Below, one piece after another: positions 43,971 through 58,452 of a stretch of DNA of 64,000 bases (position 1 is the stretch's first letter; each line of letters begins with the position of its first letter). The translations under genes and the position numbers were made by a program. The notes under the pieces were generated by a model. The model did no database searches. It worked only from the letters and a program-made list of their open reading frames with translations, and was not told where the DNA came from. The DNA is from Parapedobacter luteus. Lineage in GTDB: Bacteria; Bacteroidota; Bacteroidia; Sphingobacteriales; Sphingobacteriaceae. The stretch covers positions 124,001 to 188,000 of the forward strand of contig NZ_FUYS01000005.1 of NCBI RefSeq assembly GCF_900168055.1, in the 5' to 3' direction.

Positions 43971-45017
43971 TTACTGGGCAGACTTGAATGCATTCCATCC
44001 CTGTGCGGTGATGGGATGCACATGTCCGGATTTGGAAATTAATTCGCAACCGGCCGTTTTCTCGGTAATGTGGCCGATGACACTGATATCCGGTTGGTTT
44101 TTTACCTTGTCGTAGTCGGACTGGCTGATAGTAAAAAGCAACTCGTAGTCTTCTCCGCCGCTTAATGCACAAACCGTGGGGTCGAGCCCAAACTCCCGTG
44201 CCGTGTCATACGTCATGGGATCAATCGGTATTTTCTCCTCATATAATTTACACCCCTTGGCGGAGGATTCGCAGATGTGCAGGATTTCGGAAGCTAACCC
44301 ATCAGAGATATCTATCATTGCCGTTGGTTTTACGCCTATGGTGGCAAGTAACTGTACAATGTCCTTTCGGGCTTCGGGCTTGAGCTGACGCTCAACGATG
44401 TAATCCTTTCCTTCTAAATCGGGCTGTATGGATGGGTTTTCCAAAAAGATACGCTTTTCGCGCTCCAGGAGTTGCAAGCCCACATAGGCGCCGCCTAAAT
44501 CGCCCGACACACAGACGAGATCACCCTCCTGCGCACCGTCGCGATAAACGATATCCGCCTCCTGGGCGTAGCCTATGCTGGTGACGCTAATGACCAACCC
44601 CTGGACGGATGTGGACGTATCGCCACCTACTAAATCGACGTTATAGCTTTTGCAGGCTAAAAGCGCGCCCGCATACAATTCCTCTACCGCTTCGAGGGGA
44701 AACCGGCTTGACAGACCGATGGAAAAGGTAATCTGCGACGCTATACCGTTCATGGCGTAGATATCGCTGAGATTTACCTGTACAGCTTTGTATCCTAAAT
44801 GCTTAAGTGGCACATAACGCAAATCGAAATGAACGCCTTCCAGCAGCAAATCAGTGGACACCAGCGTTTTTTTGCCCGAAAAATCCAATACTGCAGCATC
44901 GTCACCGATTCCCTTGAGGGTGGAATTTTCAGTAAGAACTATCGCTTTTGTGATATGGGCTATCAAACCAAACTCACCCAGTCGTTCCAGATTGGTCTTT
45001 TCCTTGTTGTCAAACAT
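43971..45017 (-). CDS. thiL: Thiamine-monophosphate kinase
   Basis: The 348-residue product phosphorylates thiamine monophosphate to the diphosphate cofactor. Start ATG 45017 (MFDNKEKTNLERLGEFGLIAHITK) matches the family's usual opening. Motifs: GIGDDAAVLDF (ATP site), STDLLLEGVHFDL, NLSDIYAMNG, GGDTS and ALSGGEDYELLFT. No other thi gene is nearby. Confidence 0.94.
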   Translation of the reverse strand: MFDNKEKTNLERLGEFGLIAHITKAIVLTENSTLKGIGDDAAVLDFSGKKTLVSTDLLLEGVHFDLRYVPLKHLGYKAVQVNLSDIYAMNGIASQITFSIGLSSRFPLEAVEELYAGALLACKSYNVDLVGGDTSTSVQGLVISVTSIGYAQEADIVYRDGAQEGDLVCVSGDLGGAYVGLQLLEREKRIFLENPSIQPDLEGKDYIVERQLKPEARKDIVQLLATIGVKPTAMIDISDGLASEILHICESSAKGCKLYEEKIPIDPMTYDTAREFGLDPTVCALSGGEDYELLFTISQSDYDKVKNQPDISVIGHITEKTAGCELISKSGHVHPITAQGWNAFKSAQ

Positions 45018-45113
45018 CTTCCTATTATGATTAAAGGGTATCGATTCAAAAAATAATGATGGCCGCACACTTTTTTATGCTTTTATCCTTACGCTTGTTC
45101 GTTAATGTCTACT

Positions 45114-46109
45114 TTAAAGTCCCAGACGCTCGGATATCTCCAGCATCCGCTCGATAGGCCGTTTTGCGCGGGCAATGATGCCGGCCGGCAAATCAACTTC
45201 GGGAAGATCGAACTTCATGCAGTTATATACCTTTTCCAGGGTGTTGAGCTTCATATAGGGACAGTCGTTGCATGCACAGGCGTTGTTCGGAGGCGCAGGT
45301 ATAAACGTTTTGCCCGGGCTTGCTTTCTCCATTTGGTGGATGATGCCGCTTTCCGTGGCAACGATAAACGTATCCGAGTCGCTCTCTTGCGTATACTTAA
45401 GCAATCCTGATGTCGAACCGATGTAATCTGCGGCATCCAGTAATTCTTTTTCGCATTCCGGATGTGCGATGAATTTGGCGTGTGGAAATTGCCTACGCAA
45501 GTGTTGGATACGCTCCTGCGAAAACAACTCATGGACCATACAGGCGCCATTCCACAGGACCAAATCGCGACCTGTTTTCCGCCGCACGTAATCACCCAAG
45601 TTCTTATCCGGCCCGAAGATAATTTTCTGGTCGGGCGGAAGACTGTCCACAATCTGAACGGCATTGCTCGACGTACAGACGATGTCACTGAGCGCCTTCA
45701 ATTCGGCGGTGCAATTCACGTACGTAATGGCGATATGATCAGGATATTGCTCCTTGAATTTGGCAAAAAGATGAGGCGGGCAACTATCGGAGAGCGAACA
45801 GCCCGCTTTCAGATCTGGAAGCAATACTTTCTTCTGCGGTGAAAGTATTTTAGCCGTTTCGGCCATAAAGTGCACACCGGCGAAGACAATCACATCGGCC
45901 TGCGTCTTGGCAGCTTGCTGCGAAAGGCCTAAACTATCGCCGATGTAATCAGCGATATCCTGTATCTCCGGCTCCTGGTAATAATGCGCTAAGAGTACAG
46001 CATTTTTTTCCTTTTTCAGCTTGTTTATCTCTTCAACCAAATCCAGCGTCGGATCGATTGGTTCGTCGATATAGCCTTTTGTATCCAGTTCAGTTAGATA
46101 AGTAATCAT
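45114..46109 (-). CDS. nadA: Quinolinate synthase
   Basis: The 331-residue product condenses iminoaspartate with dihydroxyacetone phosphate to quinolinate in NAD synthesis. Start ATG 46109 ([12 protein letters not shown]) lies just after the promoter; an upstream TTG sits inside the -7 element. Motifs: [44 protein letters not shown] and [28 protein letters not shown] carries a cluster-ligand Cys. It is divergent from nadB, whose product supplies iminoaspartate. Confidence 0.95.
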
Positions 46110-46115
46110 GATATA

Positions 46116-46123
46116 CAAAGGTA
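46116..46123 (-). promoter_or_regulatory. -7 promoter element of nadA
   Basis: TACCTTTG on the minus strand ends six bases before ATG 46109, predicting a leader of 0-3 bases. No convincing -33 element was seen. Confidence 0.5.
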
Positions 46124-46557
46124 GCTAAACAATTTGATATGCTTTTCATCATTCCCACAGGGACAATAAGTAATAATTGATTTTTAATATAAATGATCTT
46201 ATTGTTTGTTAGGCTGTTGGTTTTGTGAGAAATCTGGGCGGTTTTTATTTTGTTTTTTGATTTGGATCTTTTTTTTAACAGGTTATTAACATTGTCTTAA
46301 TCTTTTGGCACTGGTTTTCAGTTAGTTTTGTTTTACCCGAAATTGTTTTCCATAGCAGCATGTATACTAATTATTGGCTGAGATTTGTTAATATTGTGAG
46401 CTGTTGATGGGGATTTTCTTGAGGGCGCTGTGTAAAAATAATGGTTTTTCGGAGACTTGATGAGTTTCTATTTTTTATTCAACGCGTTGTTTACATGTTG
46501 TCCACAATTTTCGGTCTCCGCCAATAACAAATACGGCTTTGCCGCTTAGGTTATTTT
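46124..46557. other. AT-rich nadA-nadB intergenic region, candidate replication-origin segment
   Basis: About 430 bases with no plausible ORF. The plus strand is strikingly rich in T and G from about 46190 onward (runs of T at 46247-46278). It contains an 8-bp inverted repeat (ACAATAAG 46163-46170, CTTATTGT 46198-46205) around a very AT-rich core, and one DnaA-box-like TTGTCCACA at 46498-46506. Strand composition of flanking genes changes here. It may be oriC or simply a long regulatory region of the NAD genes; no clear promoter for nadB was identified. Confidence 0.4.
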
Positions 46558-48144
46558 ATGCATACTGTTGATTTTTTAGTTATTGGTTCGGGTATTGCCG
46601 GATTGAGTTTCGCATTGAAGGCAGCCAGTCATGGTAAAGTATTGATTATCACCAAATCGAACGAAGACGAGTCGAATACCAAATACGCACAGGGGGGCGT
46701 AGCAGTGGTTGTGGATAAGTCTGACTCGTTTGAAAAGCATATCGCTGATACACTGATAGCTGGCGATGGTTTATGCGATGTGAATGTTGTGGAAAACGTG
46801 GTGAAAGAAGGACCCAGGCGGATACAGGAGATTATTGATTACGGGACGCACTTCGATAAGACCGCGGGTGGCGTATATGACCTGGCGAAGGAAGGCGGAC
46901 ACTCCGAACACCGGGTATTGCATTACAAGGACATCACCGGATTTGAGATCGAACGGGTGTTGCTGGAGAAGGTTCATGAGAATCCTAATATAGAGGTTCT
47001 TACGCATTATTTTGCGGTAGATTTGATTACTCAGCATCATCTTGGCGTATTTGTGGATAAAAGTACGCCGGACATCACGTGCTATGGCGTGTACGCGTTG
47101 AACACGGTTGACAACAGGGTGGAAAAGATTTTGAGTAAGGTTACAGTGATGGCTTCTGGCGGGGCGGGCCATATCTATTCGAGTACGACAAACCCTGTGA
47201 TTGCTACCGGAGATGGGATAGCAATGGTATACCGGGCCAAAGGAAAGGTGCGGAATATGGAGTTTATCCAGTTTCATCCCACAGCATTATACAATCCGGG
47301 TGAGTATCCTTCTTTTTTGATTTCGGAAGCGGTAAGGGGATATGGCGGAGTGCTGCGCAGGAAAAACGGCGAACGTTTCATGGAGGAATATGATGCAAGG
47401 GGTTCCCTGGCACCCCGTGATATTGTCGCGCGGGCAATCGATACCGAAATGAAAAAATCGGGCGACGATTTTGTTTTTTTGGATATTACCCATCGAAGCA
47501 AGGATGAGATTTTGAAGCATTTCCCGAATATCTATGCAAAGTGCCTGTCTATCGGCATTGATATGTCAAGGGACTATATCCCTGTAACACCGGCTGCCCA
47601 TTATTTATGCGGTGGCATTATGGTTGACGGTCATGGCCGCTCTTTTATTCAACGCCTTTATGCGTGTGGTGAGTGTGCATCTACGGGATTACACGGTGCT
47701 AACCGATTGGCTTCTAATTCTTTGCTTGAGGCTACGGTGTTTGCTCATCGCATCTATGAGGATGCCATCAAAAAGGTGGGAACTATTGAAGTGCCAACGG
47801 ATATACCGGATTGGGACGATTCGGACACGGCGTTGTCCAATGAGGATATTTTGGTGACCCATAATCTACGGGAAACGCAGAAAGTGATGAGCGATTATGT
47901 AGGTATCGTTCGTTCGGATTTTAGGTTGGAACGGGCGATGCGCCGGTTAGGGTTGCTATATGATGAGACCGAGCAATTTTATAAAAATACGAAACTTTCG
48001 GTGAAGCTTTGCGAACTGAGAAATGTTATCCAGGTAGCGTATTTGGTAATCAAGTCAGCCATGGCGAGGAAGGAAAGCCGGGGGCTGCATTATACAACTG
48101 ATTACCCTGAGAGGTCGGAGGTATTGGTGGATACGATTTTTTAA
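46558..48144 (+). CDS. nadB: L-aspartate oxidase
   Basis: The 528-residue flavoenzyme oxidises L-aspartate to iminoaspartate for NadA. FAD motif VIGSGIAGLSFALKAA lies at residues 7-22, then TKYAQGGVAVV, GGHSEHRVLH and the active-site region EFIQFHPTALYNPGE. HYLCGGIMVDGHGRS, GEC...GLHGANRLASNSLLE and the helical C-terminal domain follow. The length is typical. Codon positions are richer in G and T than in the plus-strand genes left of 46 kb. Confidence 0.96.
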   Translation: MHTVDFLVIGSGIAGLSFALKAASHGKVLIITKSNEDESNTKYAQGGVAVVVDKSDSFEKHIADTLIAGDGLCDVNVVENVVKEGPRRIQEIIDYGTHFDKTAGGVYDLAKEGGHSEHRVLHYKDITGFEIERVLLEKVHENPNIEVLTHYFAVDLITQHHLGVFVDKSTPDITCYGVYALNTVDNRVEKILSKVTVMASGGAGHIYSSTTNPVIATGDGIAMVYRAKGKVRNMEFIQFHPTALYNPGEYPSFLISEAVRGYGGVLRRKNGERFMEEYDARGSLAPRDIVARAIDTEMKKSGDDFVFLDITHRSKDEILKHFPNIYAKCLSIGIDMSRDYIPVTPAAHYLCGGIMVDGHGRSFIQRLYACGECASTGLHGANRLASNSLLEATVFAHRIYEDAIKKVGTIEVPTDIPDWDDSDTALSNEDILVTHNLRETQKVMSDYVGIVRSDFRLERAMRRLGLLYDETEQFYKNTKLSVKLCELRNVIQVAYLVIKSAMARKESRGLHYTTDYPERSEVLVDTIF

Positions 48145-48154
48145 TACGTATGAT

Positions 48155-48670
48155 ATGGCATTGATTATTCCTGTTAAAGGCGTTTACCCAAGTATCGGGT
48201 CGGATTGTTTTATAGCGGCGAACGCTACTGTTGTTGGGGATGTGGTGCTTGGCGAGCGTTGTTCGGTGTGGTTCAACGCGGTGGTTCGCGGCGATGTGAA
48301 TAGTATCCGGATAGGCCAGTGCACCAATATTCAGGATGGTGTAGTGATTCATTGTACCTATCTGACCGCGCCGACGGTAATCGGTGATTATGTCAATATC
48401 GGACACCAGGCGATGGTACATGGATGTACCTTGAAAAATCGGGTACTTATCGGCATGGGAGCCATTGTCATGGACCATGCGGTGGTTGAAGATTACGTGA
48501 TCGTTGCAGCCGGTGCCGTGGTACTTGAAGGAACGATGTGCGAGAGCGGGTATTTATATGCCGGTGTTCCCGCTAAGAAGATAAAGCCGATATCGGACGA
48601 GCAGCGGAAGTTGCTCGATGAACTTCCGCTGCGCTATGTGATGTACTCCGGGTGGTTCTCAGCGGAATAG
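48155..48670 (+). CDS. Gamma-carbonic-anhydrase-like hexapeptide protein
   Basis: The 171-residue left-handed beta-helix is built from hexapeptide repeats (IAANATVVGDVVLGERCSVWFNAVVRGD, IGDYVNIGHQAMVHGC) and closes with YAGVPAKKIKPIS. His residues in VIHC, GHQ and VHGC are placed as the zinc ligands of the gamma-CA/PaaY/YrdA group. Carbonic anhydrase activity is not assured in this subgroup. It lies 10 bases after nadB, probably co-transcribed. Confidence 0.9.
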   Translation: MALIIPVKGVYPSIGSDCFIAANATVVGDVVLGERCSVWFNAVVRGDVNSIRIGQCTNIQDGVVIHCTYLTAPTVIGDYVNIGHQAMVHGCTLKNRVLIGMGAIVMDHAVVEDYVIVAAGAVVLEGTMCESGYLYAGVPAKKIKPISDEQRKLLDELPLRYVMYSGWFSAE

Positions 48671-48680
48671 CCATCTATGA

Positions 48681-50345
48681 CTATTTTGGAACGTTGATGG
48701 TTTCTTCTTGTTCCCAGTTCGCACGGATGATAAACGTTTTGCCAATGTACCAGACCCGCTCGGGTTGTCTACGTTCATATACGTTGCCGGGATCCCATTT
48801 TCCATTGAAGTTCTCGTCGTAAACGATTCGTACGGTATACTTGCCACCGGGCATCTGGCGAAAGGGAATGTCTGACGGTCCTCTGATTGCAACGCTGCGG
48901 TAAACAAAGTCCATTTTTTCATTGGTCACCTGGACCAAGTACTGGAGTGTGGTATCCGGCACGTTGACTTTTAAAATAATGTCGCCGAAATTTTCCGTTT
49001 CGTCTAAGGTGAACGATCGGGTTACACTTTTGCTTTTATCACCGAAGTAACCCGAGAAAGCACCCTCTTCGAAGGTCAACGAGTAGTTTCGTTTCGGTCG
49101 CCAGTTGTATCGCAAGATAAATCGCCTTGGTGCAACGGTATCACGTGCAAGTTGGAAATTGGTACGTGGTATGGAATCTTCCAGAAGAATGATTTTGCTT
49201 CGATCGATGGCCTGCACGGGAGCGCCTGCAGTAAGTTCAATATGCCTGATCCGGTTTACCCGATTTCCGGTTAAGTTGTCGGTTATGATGAAATCGCGGT
49301 CATATTTTTCGTTTCGGCCGCGGCGCATAGTCACGGAGTCCAATGGATTGCCATCGTCGAGGAAACGGACTTTTAACGAATCGAATGTCAGATCATTGAG
49401 CCATACCACGGCGGAATCGCGATTTACGGAATATTCGAGCTGCTTGTCTTCGTTGAGTTCGGGTGGATACGTGATGATGATTTCCGGGTTTTCAAGTGGT
49501 TTATTGAAGGCAAACGTTAGTCTTCCATTGGATTCGAGCTTGCGATCGAGCAGACGGAAATTACGGGCGATTCCACGTGAGAGCTGAAGTAGGATACCCG
49601 ATGTGTCCTGCGCTAAGGTAATGGAATCATTAAGGAATCCAATAAGTTCGCTGGGGTCGTTATATACACGGTCGTTATTTTCTTCTTTAAGGGCATAGAT
49701 GTGGTATGTATCTTCACGGAGGTTTCTGAACTGGAAATTTCCCGCGGTATCTGTCAGTGTGAAGATATTTGCTTTGCGTTTGCCAAAGATGGAATCCTGT
49801 CGGGTGGGAATAAGCATTACCGTGACTTCTTTTTCTGACAGTTTCGTGAGTGCATTGATGACTTTTCCGGAAACGGCCAGGGAGTCGATGATATCACCGG
49901 TGGAAAAAACATAGCTGTAATTCAATAATGGATTGTTTTCATTGAAGTCACCGATGGCCTTACCGAAATTGATGGTGTAGGTTGTATTTTCAGCAAGCGA
50001 GTCGGGAAGTTCGATTTCGATGTTTCGCCTGCGGACACGCGGGCTGATGGGTTGGTCGATATCCGGTGATACGCTGATTTCCCTGAGCGGATTAGTTAGC
50101 CGGATATATTCATCAAATTCGATAACGATCTTTTCAGCGTTGAAGTTTCGCGTTAGATTAGGCGGCGTCTCATTGATAATTTTGGGCGGTATTGAATCTC
50201 TGGGGCCACCGGTGGGCTGCTGTATGCTCGCGCATTGCCAAGTGAGCAAAATAAGGCCGATAAAGAAGGCGAAAACACCCCATTTCGGATTTAAGCCTAT
50301 TTTTAGGCGATTAGAGCGAGTTTTTATTTTGGACGATTCTTGCAT
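48681..50345 (-). CDS. Ig-like-domain lipoprotein, unknown
   Basis: The 554-residue product has a cytoplasmic basic start, a membrane segment (WGVFAFFIGLILLTWQC) with Cys near 38, and a proline-rich linker (QQPTGGPRDSIPPKI). An SbsA-type Ig-like domain follows at about 55-150 (PPNLTRNFNAEKIVIEFDEYIRL), then more beta-sandwich modules. The opening CASIQQPTGGPRDSIPPKI is a pattern I know from conserved Bacteroidota lipoproteins; the role is unknown. It ends 10 bases from the convergent gamma-CA-like gene. Confidence 0.85.
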   Translation of the reverse strand: MQESSKIKTRSNRLKIGLNPKWGVFAFFIGLILLTWQCASIQQPTGGPRDSIPPKIINETPPNLTRNFNAEKIVIEFDEYIRLTNPLREISVSPDIDQPISPRVRRRNIEIELPDSLAENTTYTINFGKAIGDFNENNPLLNYSYVFSTGDIIDSLAVSGKVINALTKLSEKEVTVMLIPTRQDSIFGKRKANIFTLTDTAGNFQFRNLREDTYHIYALKEENNDRVYNDPSELIGFLNDSITLAQDTSGILLQLSRGIARNFRLLDRKLESNGRLTFAFNKPLENPEIIITYPPELNEDKQLEYSVNRDSAVVWLNDLTFDSLKVRFLDDGNPLDSVTMRRGRNEKYDRDFIITDNLTGNRVNRIRHIELTAGAPVQAIDRSKIILLEDSIPRTNFQLARDTVAPRRFILRYNWRPKRNYSLTFEEGAFSGYFGDKSKSVTRSFTLDETENFGDIILKVNVPDTTLQYLVQVTNEKMDFVYRSVAIRGPSDIPFRQMPGGKYTVRIVYDENFNGKWDPGNVYERRQPERVWYIGKTFIIRANWEQEETINVPK

Positions 50346-50426
50346 CGGGTATGTCGGAGAAAATGCCTTATAGCTGATTTATGAAAGCCGAAGTTTTTTA
50401 CGGTTAAGTAGTTGAAAACAAGATTA

Positions 50427-52286
50427 TTAACTCATATGAACCATTAAAACGGATATATCTGATGGTGAAACCCCCGAAATACGGGATGCCTGGCCAAGTG
50501 TACGCGGCTTGACCTTAATTAATTTTTCCCGGGCTTCTTTTGAAAGGGATACCAGACTGGTGTAGTCAAATTCTGGATTGATTTCCTGATCTTCCATGCG
50601 GCGCATCTTATTCACGATTTCGATTTCCTTTTCAAAATAGCTGTCGTATTTGACTTTGATTTCTGCCTGCTCGATGATTGCTTTATCAAAGTTTGACAAC
50701 AAGGTAGCCAATCCGCTGTCGGTCCGCGAGATATCGCCGATACTTACCTGAGGTCGGGTAAGGATGTGAAACAGGCGTGTTTTCTGCGTAAGCGGGCTGG
50801 TATGCAGTTCCTGCAAAATTGGATTGATGGCGTCGGTATCGACGGAGTGCGTCCGCAGGTATTCAACGATTCGGTCGGCTGAAGCCACTTTCTGTTTTAC
50901 CTGTTCGAGGCGTTCGTCGGATACAAGGCCCAATTGGTGGGCAATCGGTGTAAGCCTGGCATCTGCATTGTCTTGACGTAGCAGCAGCCGGTGCTCAGCC
51001 CGTGATGTAAACATGCGGTAAGGCTCTTCGGTTCCTTTGGTCACCAAATCATCGATAAGTACGCCGATATAGGACTCAGAACGTTTAAGAATCAATTCAT
51101 GCAAATCATTGATGCGTTGGTGGGCATTGATGCCGGCGATGAATCCTTGGCTGGCGGCTTCTTCGTAGCCCGTGGTGCCGTTGATCTGGCCAGCGAAAAA
51201 GAGGTGTTTGATCTGTTGGGTTTCCAGCGTCAAATCCAATTGCATCGGAGGAAAATAGTCATATTCGATCGCATAGCCCGGCCGGAACATCCGGGCATTT
51301 TCAAAGCCGGGAATCAGCCGGAGTGCCTTAAGTTGGATATCTTCAGGCAAAGAAGTGGAAAAGCCATTGACATAGATTTCGACAGTCTTCCAACCTTCAG
51401 GTTCCACAAAGATCTGGTGACGATCGCGCTCGGCAAAACGGTTTATTTTATCTTCGATGGATGGGCAGTAGCGCGGACCGAGACCTTTGATTCGGCCTGT
51501 AAACATGGGCGATTTTTCGAAACCTTCTTTTAATGTTTCATGCACGGCCTCATTGGTATAGGTAATCCAGCAACAGCGTTGTTCGGTGGGAAGCTCCACA
51601 TTGGTAAAGGAAAACCGCCCGCGTTCTTCGTCGCCCCATTGTTCTTCCATCTTCGAATAGTCAAGGCTTCTTCCGTCTACACGCGGTGGCGTGCCGGTTT
51701 TCATGCGTCCGGATTGGAAACCTAAGCTGACTAATTGCTCGGTGAGACCCGTTGCGGCCTTTTCGCCGGTACGTCCTCCGCCAAAGCGTTTTTCGCCGAT
51801 GTGGATAGTGCCATTCAGGAAGGTGCCGTTGGTGAGGACTACCGCATCACTTTCAATCGTCAGGCCCAGGGACGTGACTACACCATTTGCCCTGCCGTTC
51901 TTGACAATAATTTCCTTAACGGTGTCTTGCCAAATATCGATGTTTGGCAAAGATTCGAGCTGTAGTCGCCATTCTTCAGCAAACCGCATGCGGTCATTTT
52001 GCGACCGTGGACTCCACATTGCGGGACCTTTCGATCGGTTAAGCATACGGAACTGGATGGTTGTTTTATCGGCGATAATTCCAGAGTAGCCGCCCATGGC
52101 GTCAATTTCCCGCACAATTTGGCCTTTAGCGACTCCTCCCATCGCCGGGTTGCAACTCATTTGTGCAATCGTGGCCATATTCATTGTAATAAGTAACACG
52201 GACGATCCAAGGTTTGCCGCTGCCGCAGCAGCCTCGCATCCCGCATGCCCCCCTCCCACTACAATGATATTATATTTTTTAAACAT
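50427..52286 (-). CDS. mnmG: tRNA uridine-5-carboxymethylaminomethyl modification enzyme MnmG
   Basis: The 619-residue product starts at ATG 52286 ([20 protein letters not shown]), the FAD motif that opens the family. A longer frame would run through the parS-like palindrome. Signature regions are [33 protein letters not shown] and [19 protein letters not shown], with a C-terminal helical MnmE-contact domain. With MnmE it modifies the wobble uridine of several tRNAs. mnmG (gidA) is often origin-proximal in bacterial chromosomes. Confidence 0.96.
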
Positions 52287-52298
52287 GATGTCTCTTTT

Positions 52299-52314
52299 TG
52301 TTCCACGTGGAACA
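52299..52314. promoter_or_regulatory. parS-like ParB-binding palindrome 1
   Basis: TGTTCCACGTGGAACA, a perfect 16-base palindrome, matches the centromere site parS (general form TGTTtCACGTGaAACA, with the TTCCACGTGGAA variant known from other phyla). It lies 12 bases upstream of the mnmG ATG. Confidence 0.8.
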
Positions 52315-52333
52315 TTTATTAACTTCAATTACC

Positions 52334-52353
52334 GATGTTCCACGTGGAACATC
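52334..52353. promoter_or_regulatory. parS-like ParB-binding palindrome 2
   Basis: The same 16-base core, here extended to a perfect 20-base palindrome (GATGTTCCACGTGGAACATC), with centre 37 bases from the first copy. It sits between the stop of the ABC-F gene (52363) and mnmG. Confidence 0.82.
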
Positions 52354-52362
52354 TTATGAATA

Positions 52363-54225
52363 CTATATATACTCCCCTAAGTCGAGCCACCGAGCTGTTT
52401 TCAGATCGAGGTCATTATTTAGTTGTTCGATTTCGCTTGCGATTTCCGCTATCGCAGTATAATCGTTTGTTTCGTTTAATGCACTGGTTCGCTCAGCTAT
52501 TCGCTGCTCAAGCAACGGTATCTCAGAATCCAAGGATTCATATTCTTTTAATTCTGTATACGACAGTTTCTTTTTGACGGGCGTTTTGTCTGTTTTCGGT
52601 GGCGCTTTCTGTTCTACCGCTGTCTTGGCTCGCTGAACTAATATTGCCTGTTCGGATTTATAATCCGCGTAGTTGCCATTATAAACCGTGACGGTGCCGT
52701 TGCCTTCGAAAATAAAGAGTTGGTCCGTGAGCCGGTCAAGTAGATAGCGGTCGTGAGAAACCATTAATAATACCCCCGGGTAATTCACCAAAAACTCCTC
52801 CAGTACATTAAGCGTGTCAATATCCAAATCGTTGGCAGGTTCATCGAGAATAAGGAAGTTTGGATTTTGCATGAGTACACGCAAAAGTTGCAATCGCTTG
52901 CGCTCTCCCCCACTAAGTTTGCTTACCATATTGAATTGCTTTTCCGGCGGGAAAAGAAATTGGGTAAGGAGTTGTGAAGCCGATAGTGTATCGCCGTTAG
53001 CCATACTGATATATTCGGCTACATTTTTTACGACATCGATCACACGTTCGGTTTCGGAAGAAGGCACCAAACCTCCCTGCTTGTAATAACCGAATACGGT
53101 CGTGCCTCCTTTGGTTACGGTGCCGCTATCCGGTTGCTCCAACCCGGTAATCAGATTCAGGAAAGTCGATTTTCCAGTGCCATTTCGGCCAGCGAGGCCG
53201 ACGCGGTCGCCTTTTTTAAAAACGTATGAAAAGTCGCTGATAAGCGTTTGTTCGTCGTAACCCTTTGATATGCTTTCCAGTTCAAGTATCTTATTGCCTT
53301 GCCTGCTTATTTTTACACTGAGTTGTACGGTGTCGTTCTGCTTTTGCCCTTTGGTTTTCTCTTCCAATTCATGGAAGGCGTCGATGCGCGCCTTGGACTT
53401 TGTACCCCTGGCCTGGGGTTGCCTGCGCATCCATTCCAGCTCCTTCCGGAGGAGGTTCCGATTGCGATCCAGTAAGACACCAGCAGCTTCTTCTTGTTCG
53501 GCTTTCTTTTCCAAATAGTAACTGTAGTTGCCTGTATAAGCTGTAAGCTTGCCATGGTCCAGTTCGCGGATTCCGATGCTTACCGCATCAAGAAAATACC
53601 GGTCGTGGGTGACGAGCAACACCGTCTTTTGTCCCGTAGTAAGCAGTTTTTCCAACCATTCGATCGTTTCGATGTCGAGGTGGTTGGTCGGCTCGTCCAA
53701 AATGTAGACATCGGGCTCATCGATAAGCAGTTTAGCCAAGGACAGGCGCTTCCGTTGACCACCCGACAGCTTGGCGACTTCCCGTGAAAAATCGGTAATC
53801 TGCAAACGGGAGAGGATACTTTTGATCGTGTGTTCGTATTCCCAAGCATTCAACGCACTGAGCTGGTCACTTAGTACCATCAGCTGGTGGGCGTCTGCCT
53901 GGGGGCTTGCGACCAACTCTTCATATCGCCGGATAAGCCGCTGCTGTTCGTTGTCTGCACTATAAATAAAATCGTTGATAGACGCATAGACGCTTAGGTC
54001 GGGGTCCTGGGGAAGGAATCCTATTCGGATGCCCTTTTCCTTGACCACGGTTCCCTCGGTTGGATCCAATGCGCCCGCAAGAATGCGAAGCAACGACGAT
54101 TTGCCCGCTCCGTTGGCGCCGACCAAGGCCACCCTGTCCCCTCGCTGCAAACCGAAATGAAGATTCCTGAACAGCCACATGTCGTGATAGCTGTGTCCTA
54201 ACCGTTCTGTTGATAAAATACTCAC
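52363..54225 (-). CDS. ABC-F family ATPase (Uup-like)
   Basis: The 620-residue protein has two ATPase domains and no membrane helices. First Walker A GANGAGKSS (about 35), signature LSGGQRKRLSLAKLL and Walker B VYILDEPTNHLD; second Walker A GRNGTGKST (about 345), LSGGERKRLQLLRVL and FLILDEPANDLD. A linker of charged helices and a C-terminal coiled coil (about 560-620) are typical of the Uup branch, which acts on ribosomes or DNA-repair intermediates. It overlaps the upstream oxidoreductase gene by four bases (ATGA). Confidence 0.93.
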   Translation of the reverse strand: MSILSTERLGHSYHDMWLFRNLHFGLQRGDRVALVGANGAGKSSLLRILAGALDPTEGTVVKEKGIRIGFLPQDPDLSVYASINDFIYSADNEQQRLIRRYEELVASPQADAHQLMVLSDQLSALNAWEYEHTIKSILSRLQITDFSREVAKLSGGQRKRLSLAKLLIDEPDVYILDEPTNHLDIETIEWLEKLLTTGQKTVLLVTHDRYFLDAVSIGIRELDHGKLTAYTGNYSYYLEKKAEQEEAAGVLLDRNRNLLRKELEWMRRQPQARGTKSKARIDAFHELEEKTKGQKQNDTVQLSVKISRQGNKILELESISKGYDEQTLISDFSYVFKKGDRVGLAGRNGTGKSTFLNLITGLEQPDSGTVTKGGTTVFGYYKQGGLVPSSETERVIDVVKNVAEYISMANGDTLSASQLLTQFLFPPEKQFNMVSKLSGGERKRLQLLRVLMQNPNFLILDEPANDLDIDTLNVLEEFLVNYPGVLLMVSHDRYLLDRLTDQLFIFEGNGTVTVYNGNYADYKSEQAILVQRAKTAVEQKAPPKTDKTPVKKKLSYTELKEYESLDSEIPLLEQRIAERTSALNETNDYTAIAEIASEIEQLNNDLDLKTARWLDLGEYI

Positions 54226-54878
54226 ACCACGTTCTTAATATCGTCCCAGTAATAAATAAATGTCCCTTTGGTATGGCGTTGCGCGACGCTGTTCATCGCC
54301 TTGGCAACAGCCGTGGCTGGAATGCTGCGATACCGCTTCATACGGCCTACTAAAAGTGGATTGATGACGTTGAAAACCCGTTCTGAAAACGACTCCAGCG
54401 CCCGATGCTCCTGTCGTTGCCCGGTAAGTAAGGAGGGCCGGAAAATATGCAGGCCATCGAAATTAACGGCTGAAATGTCCCGTTCGGTCTCCCCCTTCAT
54501 CCGTAGATAGAAATTAGCCGACCGCGGATTGGCACCGATAGCTGAAACCAAAAGGAATGCACGGGCGCCGTTTCTTTTTGTTAGCTGTGCGACAGCCAAC
54601 GGATAGTCATGATCAACTTGATAATACGCGGCTAAATCCGGGGTTTTCTTCTTTGTGGTACCCAGACAACAAAATACGTCATCTGCAATCAACTGCTTTT
54701 CAATTTTTGTAATCGATTGTAAATCAGCAATTAATTGTACAAAATTAGGATGTTCGACGGGCAAATTCCTGCGGGTCACCGCGATTACCCGGCCATAGGC
54801 CGGATTATCAAGCAGCTGCCTTAACAACGCACCGCCGATGAGTCCCGTGGCCCCGAATAGTACAGCCGTTTTTTGCAT
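54222..54878 (-). CDS. Rossmann-fold NAD(P)-binding oxidoreductase (HTATIP2-like)
   Basis: The 218-residue product has an N-terminal dinucleotide-binding motif LFGATGLIGGALLRQLL and an atypical SDR/NmrA layout (DDVFCCLGTTKKKTPDLAAYYQVDHDYPLAVAQ, LVSAIGANPRSANFYLRMKGETER). It resembles the HTATIP2/TIP30-type family. Substrate unknown. It is the first gene of a unit with the ABC-F ATPase. Confidence 0.85.
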   Translation of the reverse strand: MQKTAVLFGATGLIGGALLRQLLDNPAYGRVIAVTRRNLPVEHPNFVQLIADLQSITKIEKQLIADDVFCCLGTTKKKTPDLAAYYQVDHDYPLAVAQLTKRNGARAFLLVSAIGANPRSANFYLRMKGETERDISAVNFDGLHIFRPSLLTGQRQEHRALESFSERVFNVINPLLVGRMKRYRSIPATAVAKAMNSVAQRHTKGTFIYYWDDIKNVV

Positions 54879-54971
54879 CCTACAAATTTTTGTGCAAAAA
54901 TACGCAAATATATTGGTACTCTACTGAATAGGTGTGGTACCAGAGGGATTTCGCTTTCTAAGTATTTTGTT

Positions 54972-55053
54972 GGCCAGCTTTGGATACGCAACGCAACTGG
55001 AGGACTCGCTGCGCTCATCCCCCTAGGTCGCTTATGCGTGTCCAAAGCTGGCC
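54972..55053. repeat. Long hairpin repeat, copy B
   Basis: Arms 54972-54990 and 55035-55053 (19 bases, one G-T mismatch; outer part GGCCAGCTTTGGA) enclose a 44-base loop containing CAACTGGAGGACTCGCTGCG and CCTAGGTCGC. The unit is nearly repeated 136 bases downstream (copy C), and the arm and loop pattern resembles copy A at 13609-13687. Confidence 0.8.
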
Positions 55054-55114
55054 TAAGCTCTCGACAGGTTGCGTTTATTAGCCATGGTTTTTGGAGATTG
55101 CGAGGAGCGGCATG

Positions 55115-55184
55115 TTGGATACGAACGCAACTGGAAGACTCGCTGCGCTCATCCTTTCAGGTCGCTTATGCGTGTCCAAAGCTG
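55115..55184. repeat. Long hairpin repeat, copy C
   Basis: This segment repeats 54979-55050 with only a few changes; the outer left arm is lost, leaving a 9-bp stem (55115-55123 with 55171-55179). A second outer pair, CATGTTG (55111-55117) and CAACATG (55201-55207), could enclose the whole copy. Confidence 0.75.
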
Positions 55185-55250
55185 CCTCCAAGCCTTTTTA
55201 CAACATGTTAAAACCAATGACTAACTTTTGGTCAACATTATTAAAATTTT

Positions 55251-55301
55251 ATAGGGATTTTATAGGGACCTAATAGGGATATTATAGGGATTCATCCCTA
55301 T
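55251..55301. repeat. Phased 11-base array of ATAGGGA boxes
   Basis: ATAGGGA begins at 55251, 55262, 55273 and 55284, exactly 11 bases apart, and the inverted box TCCCTAT starts on the next step of the same grid at 55295. About 45 bases of very AT-rich DNA follow (55302-55348). The one-helical-turn spacing suggests a protein-binding array. Confidence 0.75.
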
Positions 55302-55374
55302 TAAACATGAATAAACTATTAATTAAATATCAATTATATTATAATTAGCCTGACGTTTGGTGTTGAAGGATTGG

Positions 55375-55503
55375 ATGGAAAATGGGAAAGGCTTCGGCGA
55401 CCTGAGTAAGCGGGTGTCAGCCAGGCTAAAATCGTATTGGGAGGGGAACTTAAATCGTAAAGGTAGCCGGTATGAGCTGCTGCCTAAAAGGGATATGAGC
55501 TAA
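55375..55503 (+). CDS. Possible 42-residue basic ORF or gene remnant
   Basis: ATG 55375 opens 42 codons to TAA 55501-55503, with a strongly basic product (KRVSARLKSYWEGN, NRKGSRYELLPKRD). I do not recognise it, and no promoter was seen. It could be a remnant of a mobile or defence gene left in the repeat island, or a chance frame. Confidence 0.2.
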   Translation: MENGKGFGDLSKRVSARLKSYWEGNLNRKGSRYELLPKRDMS

Positions 55504-55605
55504 GCAAAGCAGACCTCTCGGACGCCGCTGAAAACAAGCAAGAAATGAAATGTAGAATGCCTCATGCGGCCGCATTGCCATTTAAAGGCAATTTCAATGA
55601 AAAAA
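55504..55605. other. Remainder of intergenic island
   Basis: The stretch between the small ORF and apaG shows no ORF or clear terminator; a short self-complementary segment (TGCCATTTAAAGGCA, 55576-55590) is the only structure seen. Confidence 0.3.
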
Positions 55606-55992
55606 TCAGTTTAACCGATGGGGCGCAATCAGGTCAAATTTTGGAATATTGACGTAAAAGAGATTTCCGTCAAACTCGCGGAGCATCTGGTATGTTCCTT
55701 TCATGGTACCCATATCACTTTTGAGGTTGCAGCCTGATACGTATTCGTGCTGCTCACCCGGCTCGATAATGGGCTGCTGGCCGACGACGCCTTCTCCTTC
55801 CACCTCCCGGTGCGAGCCATTTGAATCAAAGATATACCAATGCCTGCGCAGAAGTTGGACACTGTAATCACTTAAATTTTCGATGGTAATCTTATAGGCA
55901 AACATGAAATGCTCATTTTCCGGATTGGAATATTCGGGCTGATACACGGTTTCAACTGAAACCTTTACCCCGTCAGTAATTTGCGTGACCAT
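55606..55992 (-). CDS. apaG: ApaG-domain protein
   Basis: The product has 128 residues from ATG 55992 (MVTQITDGVKVSVETVYQPEYSNPENEHFMFAYKITIENLS), a start that matches the family better than the GTG three codons earlier. It is a single Ig-like ApaG domain with RRHWYIFDSNG, GEGVVGQQPIIEPGEQHEYVSGC and GTMKGTYQM. ApaG is linked to Co2+/Mg2+ efflux phenotypes in enterobacteria; its biochemical role is uncertain. Confidence 0.93.
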   Translation of the reverse strand: MVTQITDGVKVSVETVYQPEYSNPENEHFMFAYKITIENLSDYSVQLLRRHWYIFDSNGSHREVEGEGVVGQQPIIEPGEQHEYVSGCNLKSDMGTMKGTYQMLREFDGNLFYVNIPKFDLIAPHRLN

Positions 55993-56108
55993 GCTTATCA
56001 CAGATTTTTGGCCAATTTAACAAATGTGTTTGAATTAATGAAGCATAGGGGGAAAATACCTGCCGCTGAGCCGTCGCTGATGTTGCTGTTTCGCGCCGCA
56101 ATTTTCAT

Positions 56109-56119
56109 TACCTTTGTGC
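56109..56119 (+). promoter_or_regulatory. -7 promoter element directly before the RsmI-like gene
   Basis: TACCTTTG (56109-56116) ends three bases before ATG 56120, so transcription should begin on the start codon itself. Confidence 0.55.
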
Positions 56120-56827
56120 ATGCCTTATGGAACGTTGTACCTTATTCCCGTGCCTTTGGCCGATGAAGCCGCAGAAGCGTCCTTTACGCCGTACCTTACG
56201 CGCGTCATTAACGGCATCGATGAATATATTGTAGAGAATGAAAAGACTGCTCGCAAATTTCTCAAACAGGCTGGACTTGAGAAGGCGCAGCGCGATTTGG
56301 TTATGCATGATTACGGCAAGCACGCCCGCGATAAAGCAGATACCGCAGCTTTTTTCACGGGCTTGCAGGCGGGTAAAGACGTGGGCTTAATGAGTGAGGC
56401 CGGATGCCCCGGTGTCGCCGATCCGGGAGCCGCTATCGTGGCGGAAGCGCATCGCAGGGGCATTAATGTCGTGCCTTTGGTCGGCCCCAGTGCTATCTTG
56501 CTGGCGTTGATGGCTTCGGGGTTTAATGGGCAGAGCTTTGCGTTCCACGGCTACTTACCAATCGACAAAGCTGAACGAGCCAAAAAAATCAAAGTCCTGG
56601 AGCAGGCGGCCCAGCGGGAGCGGCAGACGCAACTGTTCATCGAAACGCCCTTTCGCAACAACCAGTTACTGGCCGAAATTCTGCGTATAGGCAAGCCTCA
56701 GACCCGGCTTTGCGTGGCATGCAATCTTACAGCCGCGGATGAGCAGATTGTCAGTCAGCCTTTGCAGCTATGGCGGAAAGGCTCCTATGACTTTCACAAA
56801 AAACCGGCAATTTTCCTGATTTTCTAA
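56120..56827 (+). CDS. RsmI-like SAM-dependent methyltransferase
   Basis: The 235-residue tetrapyrrole-methylase-fold protein is related to RsmI, which 2'-O-methylates 16S rRNA C1402. It begins MPYGTLYLIPVPLAD, and has GLMSEAGCPGVADPGAAIVAEAHRRGINVVPLVGPSAILLALMASGFNG and ETPFRNNQLLAEIL. It is shorter than classical RsmI and lacks its usual C-terminal extension, and the opening is LIPVPLAD instead of the common VATPIGNL. The exact target is therefore less certain. The next gene starts 2 bases after its stop. Confidence 0.85.
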   Translation: MPYGTLYLIPVPLADEAAEASFTPYLTRVINGIDEYIVENEKTARKFLKQAGLEKAQRDLVMHDYGKHARDKADTAAFFTGLQAGKDVGLMSEAGCPGVADPGAAIVAEAHRRGINVVPLVGPSAILLALMASGFNGQSFAFHGYLPIDKAERAKKIKVLEQAAQRERQTQLFIETPFRNNQLLAEILRIGKPQTRLCVACNLTAADEQIVSQPLQLWRKGSYDFHKKPAIFLIF

Positions 56828-56829
56828 CC

Positions 56830-58452
56830 GTGGACAACGTCAACTATACCGATGTGCTCATCGTGGGTGCTGGCCCTTCGGGCCTGATGATGGCGGCCCA
56901 GTTGCTCCGGTTTGGCGTACAACCCGTAATCATTGATAGCAAGTCGGGGCCGGACAGAACCTCCAAAGCCATCGCCGTGCATGCGCGCTCGCTGGAGCTG
57001 CTGAGGCAAATGGGGCTGGCTGATCCGCTACTTGCCCAGGGCACACCCTGTTATGGCATGCAGCTACAGTCGGGCCGAAATATACTGGGTAAACTGGATT
57101 TTTCCCAAATGGACAGCCCCCATACGGTGTTTCCGTTTATTCACATTGTCCCGCAGGACAAGACGGAAAAGTTATTGATAGACCGGTTGACGGAAAATAC
57201 ATGCCCCGTAAAGTGGGAGACCCGGTTGGTCTCGATCCGGCAGGATGATAAGGTGGCCCGCGTGGAACTGCGGAATCAGGAGACCGTCCAAAAATGGGAA
57301 TGCAAATGGGTCATCGGAGCGGATGGCATAAAAAGTACAGTGAGGGAGTGCATCGGCATTTCATTTGAAGGAAGGCCGTATCATGGCCGGTTTTTTTTGG
57401 CAGATGTGCAAATTGAGGGGGCGGATAAGCGCCTGGCTCATTTTTTTATGTCGAAAAAAGGCTTTTTGGGAATTTTTCCATACGGTTCAAACGGGCGGTA
57501 CCGCCTTTTTGGGCTATTGCCCAAAGAAAAAGAAAACCAAGGGTCTCCCGATATCCAATACGCCGATATTAAGCCCATCGTGGAGGAAAGGGTTGGCTTT
57601 GAACTTCCGGTAAGCCAAATCTTTTGGATCAGCCGGTTTCTGCTGCATAAACGCATGGCGGAACAGTTCGCCCGGCAGCGCTGTTTTTTGATAGGTGATG
57701 CGGCTCATGTGCACACGCCGATTGGCGGCCAGGGAATGAACAGCGGGATACAGGATGCTGCAAACCTGGCTTGGAAATTGGCCGGCGTGATAAACGGAAG
57801 GATGGATAGCCAGGTATTGCATACCTACCCGTTGGAGCGTATGCCTGTGGCCCGTGCCACCCTCCGCACGACTGATCGAGCGTTTAAGATCATGACAGCC
57901 GTACCGTCTTGGCTCCTTCCGCTGAGAAATACATTCTTGTCCTTGGGATTGCGTTACATCGCAAAAAAAAGCGTCAGGATCGGCAGCCTTTTTGACCATA
58001 TCGCACAACTGGATGTGCATTACCGTAAAGCACCACTTGCCGTCCATCACGCAACTGGCCGTGGAGTTCAGGCTGGAGACAGGCTTCCCTTTTTACCGAT
58101 TTTTGATGAAAAAACCAAAACCCGGACGGACTTACACCGATGGTGCGAAAAACCGGGTTTTGTATTGCTCCTTTTGGGCACCATCAGCCAGCATCATCTG
58201 CACCAAGTCGGCCAGTGGGTGCGGCAGAAATACCCCAGGGAGATGCACCTGTATTACCTACCCTATTCGGGTGAAAACAGGGATGTATTCGATGCGTTTG
58301 ATGTAAAGTCGGACGGGACGAAGATCGTTCTTATCAGGCCCGACATGCACATCGGTTACATCAACGATATGCTGAATGTAAGCCTTATCGATACGTACAT
58401 GGAAGAGGTGCTGGGATGGAAAAATTTTGGTCATTTGTCGAAAATACACTAA
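56830..58452 (+). CDS. FAD-dependent aromatic-ring monooxygenase
   Basis: The 540-residue product starts with GTG 56830, two bases after the upstream stop. It is a PHBH-fold flavoprotein: FAD motif VLIVGAGPSGLMMAAQLLRFG, WVIGADGIKSTVRECIGI (the DG motif) and CFLIGDAAHVHTPIGGQGMNSGIQDAANLAWKLAG (the GD motif). A C-terminal thioredoxin-like domain is typical of the phenol-hydroxylase/PgaE subgroup. It should hydroxylate an aromatic or polyketide substrate with NAD(P)H; the substrate is unknown. Coupling to a rRNA-methylase-like gene is unusual. Confidence 0.9.
   Translation: MDNVNYTDVLIVGAGPSGLMMAAQLLRFGVQPVIIDSKSGPDRTSKAIAVHARSLELLRQMGLADPLLAQGTPCYGMQLQSGRNILGKLDFSQMDSPHTVFPFIHIVPQDKTEKLLIDRLTENTCPVKWETRLVSIRQDDKVARVELRNQETVQKWECKWVIGADGIKSTVRECIGISFEGRPYHGRFFLADVQIEGADKRLAHFFMSKKGFLGIFPYGSNGRYRLFGLLPKEKENQGSPDIQYADIKPIVEERVGFELPVSQIFWISRFLLHKRMAEQFARQRCFLIGDAAHVHTPIGGQGMNSGIQDAANLAWKLAGVINGRMDSQVLHTYPLERMPVARATLRTTDRAFKIMTAVPSWLLPLRNTFLSLGLRYIAKKSVRIGSLFDHIAQLDVHYRKAPLAVHHATGRGVQAGDRLPFLPIFDEKTKTRTDLHRWCEKPGFVLLLLGTISQHHLHQVGQWVRQKYPREMHLYYLPYSGENRDVFDAFDVKSDGTKIVLIRPDMHIGYINDMLNVSLIDTYMEEVLGWKNFGHLSKIH

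Follow-up and report, generated by a model that had tools for sequence, protein, structure and literature searches.

Two identical 16-bp palindromes occupy the short gap between mnmG and an ABC-F gene in Parapedobacter luteus, raising the question of what such a pair does there and why it lies beside mnmG in particular. Judging from its sequence and setting, the pair is very probably parS, serving as the chromosome's centromere in a ParABS system, at which ParB would bind. The sites are real and in themselves ordinary; it is their conserved address that is noteworthy. The stretch of DNA analyzed (64,000 nucleotides, hereafter the window) contains the following features at this locus:

52299–52314, no strand: putative parS site 1, a perfect palindrome, TGTTCCACGTGGAACA, lying upstream of mnmG with the mnmG start codon 12 bp away
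52336–52351, no strand: putative parS site 2, a palindrome identical to site 1 at a centre-to-centre distance of 37 bp
52287–52362, no strand: the gap of 76 bp between the ABC-F gene and mnmG that houses both sites
50427–52286, minus strand: mnmG (gidA), 822.6 bits with TIGR00136 (cut-off 524.85), the gene at which parS is anchored in relatives
52363–54225, minus strand: ABC-F ATPase gene, 397.4 bits with NF000355 (cut-off 380), the neighbor on the far side of the sites

On the minus strand, mnmG starts with an ATG at 52286, and the ABC-F reading frame ends at 52363; both copies of the palindrome between them have zero mismatches. The first-pass annotation had marked two perfect copies at 52299–52353, which is right as to the copies and 2 bp too long at its end (site 2 ends at 52351), and its 37-bp spacing and 76-base gap are exact on re-measurement. 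A search of the window allowing up to three mismatches returns only the pair, with 0.29 matches expected by chance; two matches at this tolerance occurred in 2 of 100 shuffled windows, but these were mismatched ones. In the assembly as a whole (4,829,924 bases, 28 contigs), the pair is the only exact parS locus and the only match at up to one mismatch. Allowing two mismatches adds one site with two mismatches on contig C15, and a reversed-pattern control of the 16-mer gives no matches in the genome at that tolerance. The genome-wide scan proposed by the first-pass annotation has thereby been run, and scattered copies were not found. Each site is an exact palindrome of the GTTYCACGTGRAAC form, which matches the parS consensus (PMC7383237, excerpt). 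The Myxococcus consensus parS, to which Myxococcus ParB binds in vitro, is TGTTCCACGTGGAACG, differing from the P. luteus site in the last base (PMC3899335, excerpt).

The genome has a single ParB match (contig C16, E = 6.2e-54), adjoined by a ParA-like open reading frame in which a KGGVGKT motif can be read by eye. This ParB scores above the cut-off of the ParB domain model and can be aligned to solved ParB, Spo0J, and Noc chains. With the Noc model TIGR04285 it reaches 241.8 bits, short of the 315 cut-off, a similarity that would favor reading the palindromes as Noc-binding sites (NBS) of a nucleoid-occlusion protein. However, R and G occupy the HTH positions at which the aligned Noc chain 6y93 carries Q and R, positions reported to help decide between parS and NBS specificity, and the CACGTG centre of the sites is that of parS, unlike the NBS consensus (PMC7383237, excerpt). 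Noc function is also at odds with the lone ParB match and with two sites at one place and no scatter, leaving it an extremely improbable explanation; instead, P. luteus is predicted to encode a ParB that reads parS.

The pair lies in the origin region of the chromosome. Contig C11 (346,208 bases), which contains the window and has the sites at 176.3 kb, shows a GC skew (20-kb bins) that is negative to 140 kb, weakly so from 60 kb, approximately zero at 140–160 kb, and positive thereafter. The minimum of the cumulative skew is broad and lowest at 162 kb, with a keto minimum at 125 kb; the sign change is within ∼15–50 kb of the sites. This proximity bears out the earlier use of the pair as a marker of origin position and, together with the solitary exact pair at up to one mismatch and the parS-type residues of ParB, it upholds the original parS reading. 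Among relatives with single-contig genomes, each sampled at 20 stretches, the skew switches at 270–317 kb in G035 (mnmG at 311 kb), at 1,430–1,478 kb in G057 (mnmG at 1,476 kb), and weakly at ∼0.9–1.0 Mb in G014 (mnmG at 0.96 Mb). In these three genomes, which the skew sampling covered, dnaA is ∼0.74, 1.47, and 1.01 Mb from mnmG, respectively; in G023 it is ∼14 kb away. Beyond these relatives, the skew of Pontiella flips at its in-gene parS sites and that of Rubritalea is noisy yet compatible with an origin at the sites. In a 12-species gut consortium, dnaA is reported not always to mark the origin (PMC10197239, excerpt).

An AT-rich gap of 439 bp (46119–46557) between the divergent nadA and nadB genes lies 6 kb from the parS sites. 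One-mismatch DnaA boxes in this gap exceed those of Markov-sampled shuffles in five of six genomes (the window and four of five relatives; P of 0.035 or less), G057 giving P = 0.12, an excess that is only suggestive of a possible oriC. Placement of oriC by perfect DnaA boxes was abandoned, the boxes being ∼150–160 bp inside the nadB reading frame in several relatives and probably reflecting coding conservation.

Conservation of the sites at mnmG was followed in a set of 100 relatives that includes P. luteus itself. The 16-mer is found within one mismatch in 70 of these genomes and the exact GTTYCACGTGRAAC in 91 (45/50, 45/49, and G094), of which 69 have two exact sites, 12 have one, eight have three, one has four, and one has twelve. 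We detected mnmG in 95 of the 100 genomes. The 90 genomes having both sites and mnmG contain 188 sites in all, and 167 of these lie no more than 1.5 kb from the gene (135 upstream, 30 downstream, and 2 inside), counting 14 relatives whose positions were taken from mnmG regions where the sites equal the genome-wide counts. At least one site is this close in 85 of the 90 genomes, on the 5' side only in 64, on the 3' side only in 11, and on both sides in 10. The remaining five comprise G067 and G089, whose sites share a contig with mnmG at distances of 88 and 43 kb, and G065, G075, and G099, with sites and mnmG on different contigs. Nine relatives lack an exact site: G017 and G039 contain three 1-mismatch sites apiece, G070 has one just upstream of mnmG, G016 has a contig starting at mnmG, and G085 is a 0.5-Mb genome with no ParB match; in the other four (G015, G031, G054, and G096) mnmG was not found either.

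The mnmG and ABC-F neighbors in P. luteus are similar to Mucilaginibacter loci, and in own-family loci mnmG is accompanied by nadB, a carbonic-anhydrase-like gene, a 554-amino-acid open reading frame, and often ABC-F. In six class-level mnmG loci of 7–10 kb (L045–L048, L051, and L052), nadB and ABC-F were not found and the site at mnmG is kept, exactly in five and with one mismatch in L051. ABC-F was considered as a conserved partner of the sites and rejected because it was not found in these loci. The conserved address of the sites is mnmG: they keep to its boundaries and are at times within it, whereas neighboring genes, dnaA, and parAB are located in other places.

Several individual relatives deserve mention. 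In G068 and G082 (L250 and L251), which belong to two Bacteroidota families, parS falls within mnmG, at one shared alignment position close to the C-terminal end, and is translated as VPRGT and VSRET. In G065 (L257, positions 4010 and 5323) and G075 (L258, positions 4082 and 4304), parS is beside a gene for proteins starting MEILKTCPICNS and MEALKNCPICNH, possibly a second shared parS address in two families without parS at mnmG. The sites of G094 are within a 99-bp tandem repeat next to mnmG that reaches the contig ends (L053, 13203–13811; L052, 6117–7176), a candidate satellite-like centromere; its count of twelve sites includes a probable duplicate because the single sites on contigs C28 and C43 share sequence at overlapping contig ends.

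ParB is present in 96 of the 100 genomes, P. luteus included. G084 and G094 have exact sites and no ParB match in this search, nor did the P. luteus ParB as query find one in a search run without a positive control. A further search of the two genomes gave only matches of E = 0.25 and 0.68 while detecting ParB in the control G093; gaps in these assemblies could account for the missing gene. These two genomes count against the centromere reading, as do the five relatives with no site close to mnmG, the distance of parAB from the sites, the score of the P. luteus ParB with the Noc model, and the breadth of the skew minimum.

Placement this close to a start codon raises the possibility of an mnmG operator, that is, a leader palindrome bound by ParB or another repressor to control mnmG. 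Besides the 12 bp separating site 1 from the start codon in P. luteus, 53 of the 55 own-family genomes that have both sites and the gene place their nearest upstream site 16–31 bp from where the mnmG profile match begins, and ParB of Pseudomonas aeruginosa is reported to be able to repress promoters adjacent to parS (PMC5521831, title). Local repression of mnmG by spreading ParB is possible. However, an operator role fails to explain the conservation because in other families the sites are downstream of mnmG, on both sides of it, or, in other phyla, inside its reading frame, and a sigma-70 model, which may not fit this host, gives no promoter-like match beside the P. luteus sites. The effect on mnmG expression put forward in the first-pass annotation does not hold as the purpose of the pair for the same reason, and we regard an operator as very unlikely.

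The palindromes could alternatively act as RNA, by folding in the mnmG leader or by terminating ABC-F transcription. The leader does fold strongly (−30 kcal/mol, z = −7.05), as two identical palindromes will by construction. Pairing is not preserved, however. Across 17 genomes whose sites are asymmetric, pairing between sites is broken in 10 cases versus 8.5 under random orientation, and upstream asymmetric sites read on the mnmG strand are hairpin-breaking in 21 cases versus wobble-compatible in 12. The coding strand has no terminator-like match and the other strand has one, where 0.9 is expected in shuffles, and there is no Rfam match at 45000–58000. The hairpin or terminator reading was dropped on these grounds and its probability is slighter still than that of an operator. 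Both readings call for a constant position or conserved pairing and are disfavored because neither was observed, whereas a centromere needs proximity to the origin and binding by ParB, and so is compatible with sites that flank mnmG on either side or lie within it. The idea that the two sites keep a constant distance or helical phase was rejected: among 48 own-family genomes the interval between the two nearest upstream sites ranges over 20–532 bp, and no common phase was seen by inspection.

To look at other phyla alongside Bacteroidota, we collected at least 116 named loci, selected for two exact sites 5–35 bp apart and sorted by record title; no prevalence can be drawn from them because they were picked for carrying pairs. 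Among the loci listed, those with mnmG within 500 bp of the sites number 28 of the 35 from Bacteroidota, all 9 from Verrucomicrobiota/Kiritimatiellota, and 8 of the remaining 72 (some bearing no title beyond "bacterium"), although in 33 of the 116 the sites are <1 kb from the locus end, so that neighbors may be missed. Eleven of the source genomes, nine of which are titled as Verrucomicrobiota/Kiritimatiellota, were searched genome-wide, and all 25 of their exact sites fall at or within mnmG. In these the pair lies within the mnmG reading frame in L160 (1882–1945), L163, L169, L184, L193, L221, L229, and the untyped L164 and L176; L141 has one site inside and two just upstream, and the L162 sequence ends before its sites can be read as inside or outside the gene. 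Most in-gene sites are translated in frame as FHVEH or FHVEQ. One L193 site is read as VPRGT and one L163 site as CSTWN, and because some sites are read in such other frames, selection appears to act on the DNA rather than the peptide. Residues 228–263 of the L184 MnmG, which contain the repeats, have no aligned counterpart in chains 2zxh and 3cp2, which we take to be the Aquifex and Escherichia coli MnmG, and thus form a loop insertion. ParB was detected in all 13 genomes searched, two of them Bacteroidota.

A parS site can lie within an open reading frame in model bacteria, for example in spo0J of Bacillus subtilis. The in-gene sites of mnmG resemble these in showing that a reading frame tolerates parS, but differ in that the 11 genomes, of Verrucomicrobiota/Kiritimatiellota type, concentrate all of their exact sites at or inside the one gene, mostly as an in-frame loop insertion. 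Similarly, the P. luteus pair is like the chromosomal ParABS systems of Bacillus, Caulobacter, Pseudomonas, and Myxococcus in having a 16-bp palindrome with a parS centre, few copies, a position near the origin, and a parS-type ParB, but is unlike them in that its only exact sites are one pair at mnmG and that parAB is distant. The P. luteus parB is on a different contig from the sites, and parB is 0.30–1.12 Mb from mnmG in all nine relatives that have both on one contig. This layout departs from that described in a review of chromosomal systems, in which the conserved feature is that par operons share one ori domain with parS (PMC7022226, excerpt), because parAB is far from the sites.

How the address arose may be indicated by loci where the genes remain together. 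In L153, L158, and L159, parS, mnmG, parA, and parB all occur together, resembling the gidA-gidB-parA-parB type clusters known near oriC. Unlike such clusters, the listed Bacteroidota (0/35) and Verrucomicrobiota/Kiritimatiellota (0/9) loci have no parA or parB match within their stretches of up to 8 kb, compared with 38 of the 72 others. The simplest view, supported by L153, L158, and L159, is that parS was retained beside mnmG from an ancestral cluster after parAB had left. Among the titles and abstract openings listed in the literature searches, none describes parS anchored at mnmG; most subscription journals were outside their coverage, and an earlier description may exist there.

In P. 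luteus, then, ParB dimers would load at the two sites of the putative centromere, close as CTP clamps, and slide onto mnmG on one side and ABC-F on the other, and ParA would move the resulting ParB complexes such that the origin region is segregated first. A more far-reaching proposal, which we consider doubtful although worth stating, is that in Bacteroidota and Verrucomicrobiota/Kiritimatiellota the centromere and mnmG form one maintained unit, independent of parAB and dnaA, through a functional coupling of ParB loading with mnmG transcription or with origin placement. In this one-unit proposal the centromere would hug mnmG in the Bacteroidota and sit in frame inside it in the Verrucomicrobiota/Kiritimatiellota.

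The parS-mnmG address provides an origin and centromere landmark for bacteria in which dnaA misleads. It also suggests that a bacterial centromere can remain at one gene while the segregation genes are far off. Where the centromere is in frame within the enzyme, synonymous recoding could delete the site and leave the protein unchanged, which would allow a clean test of parS function.
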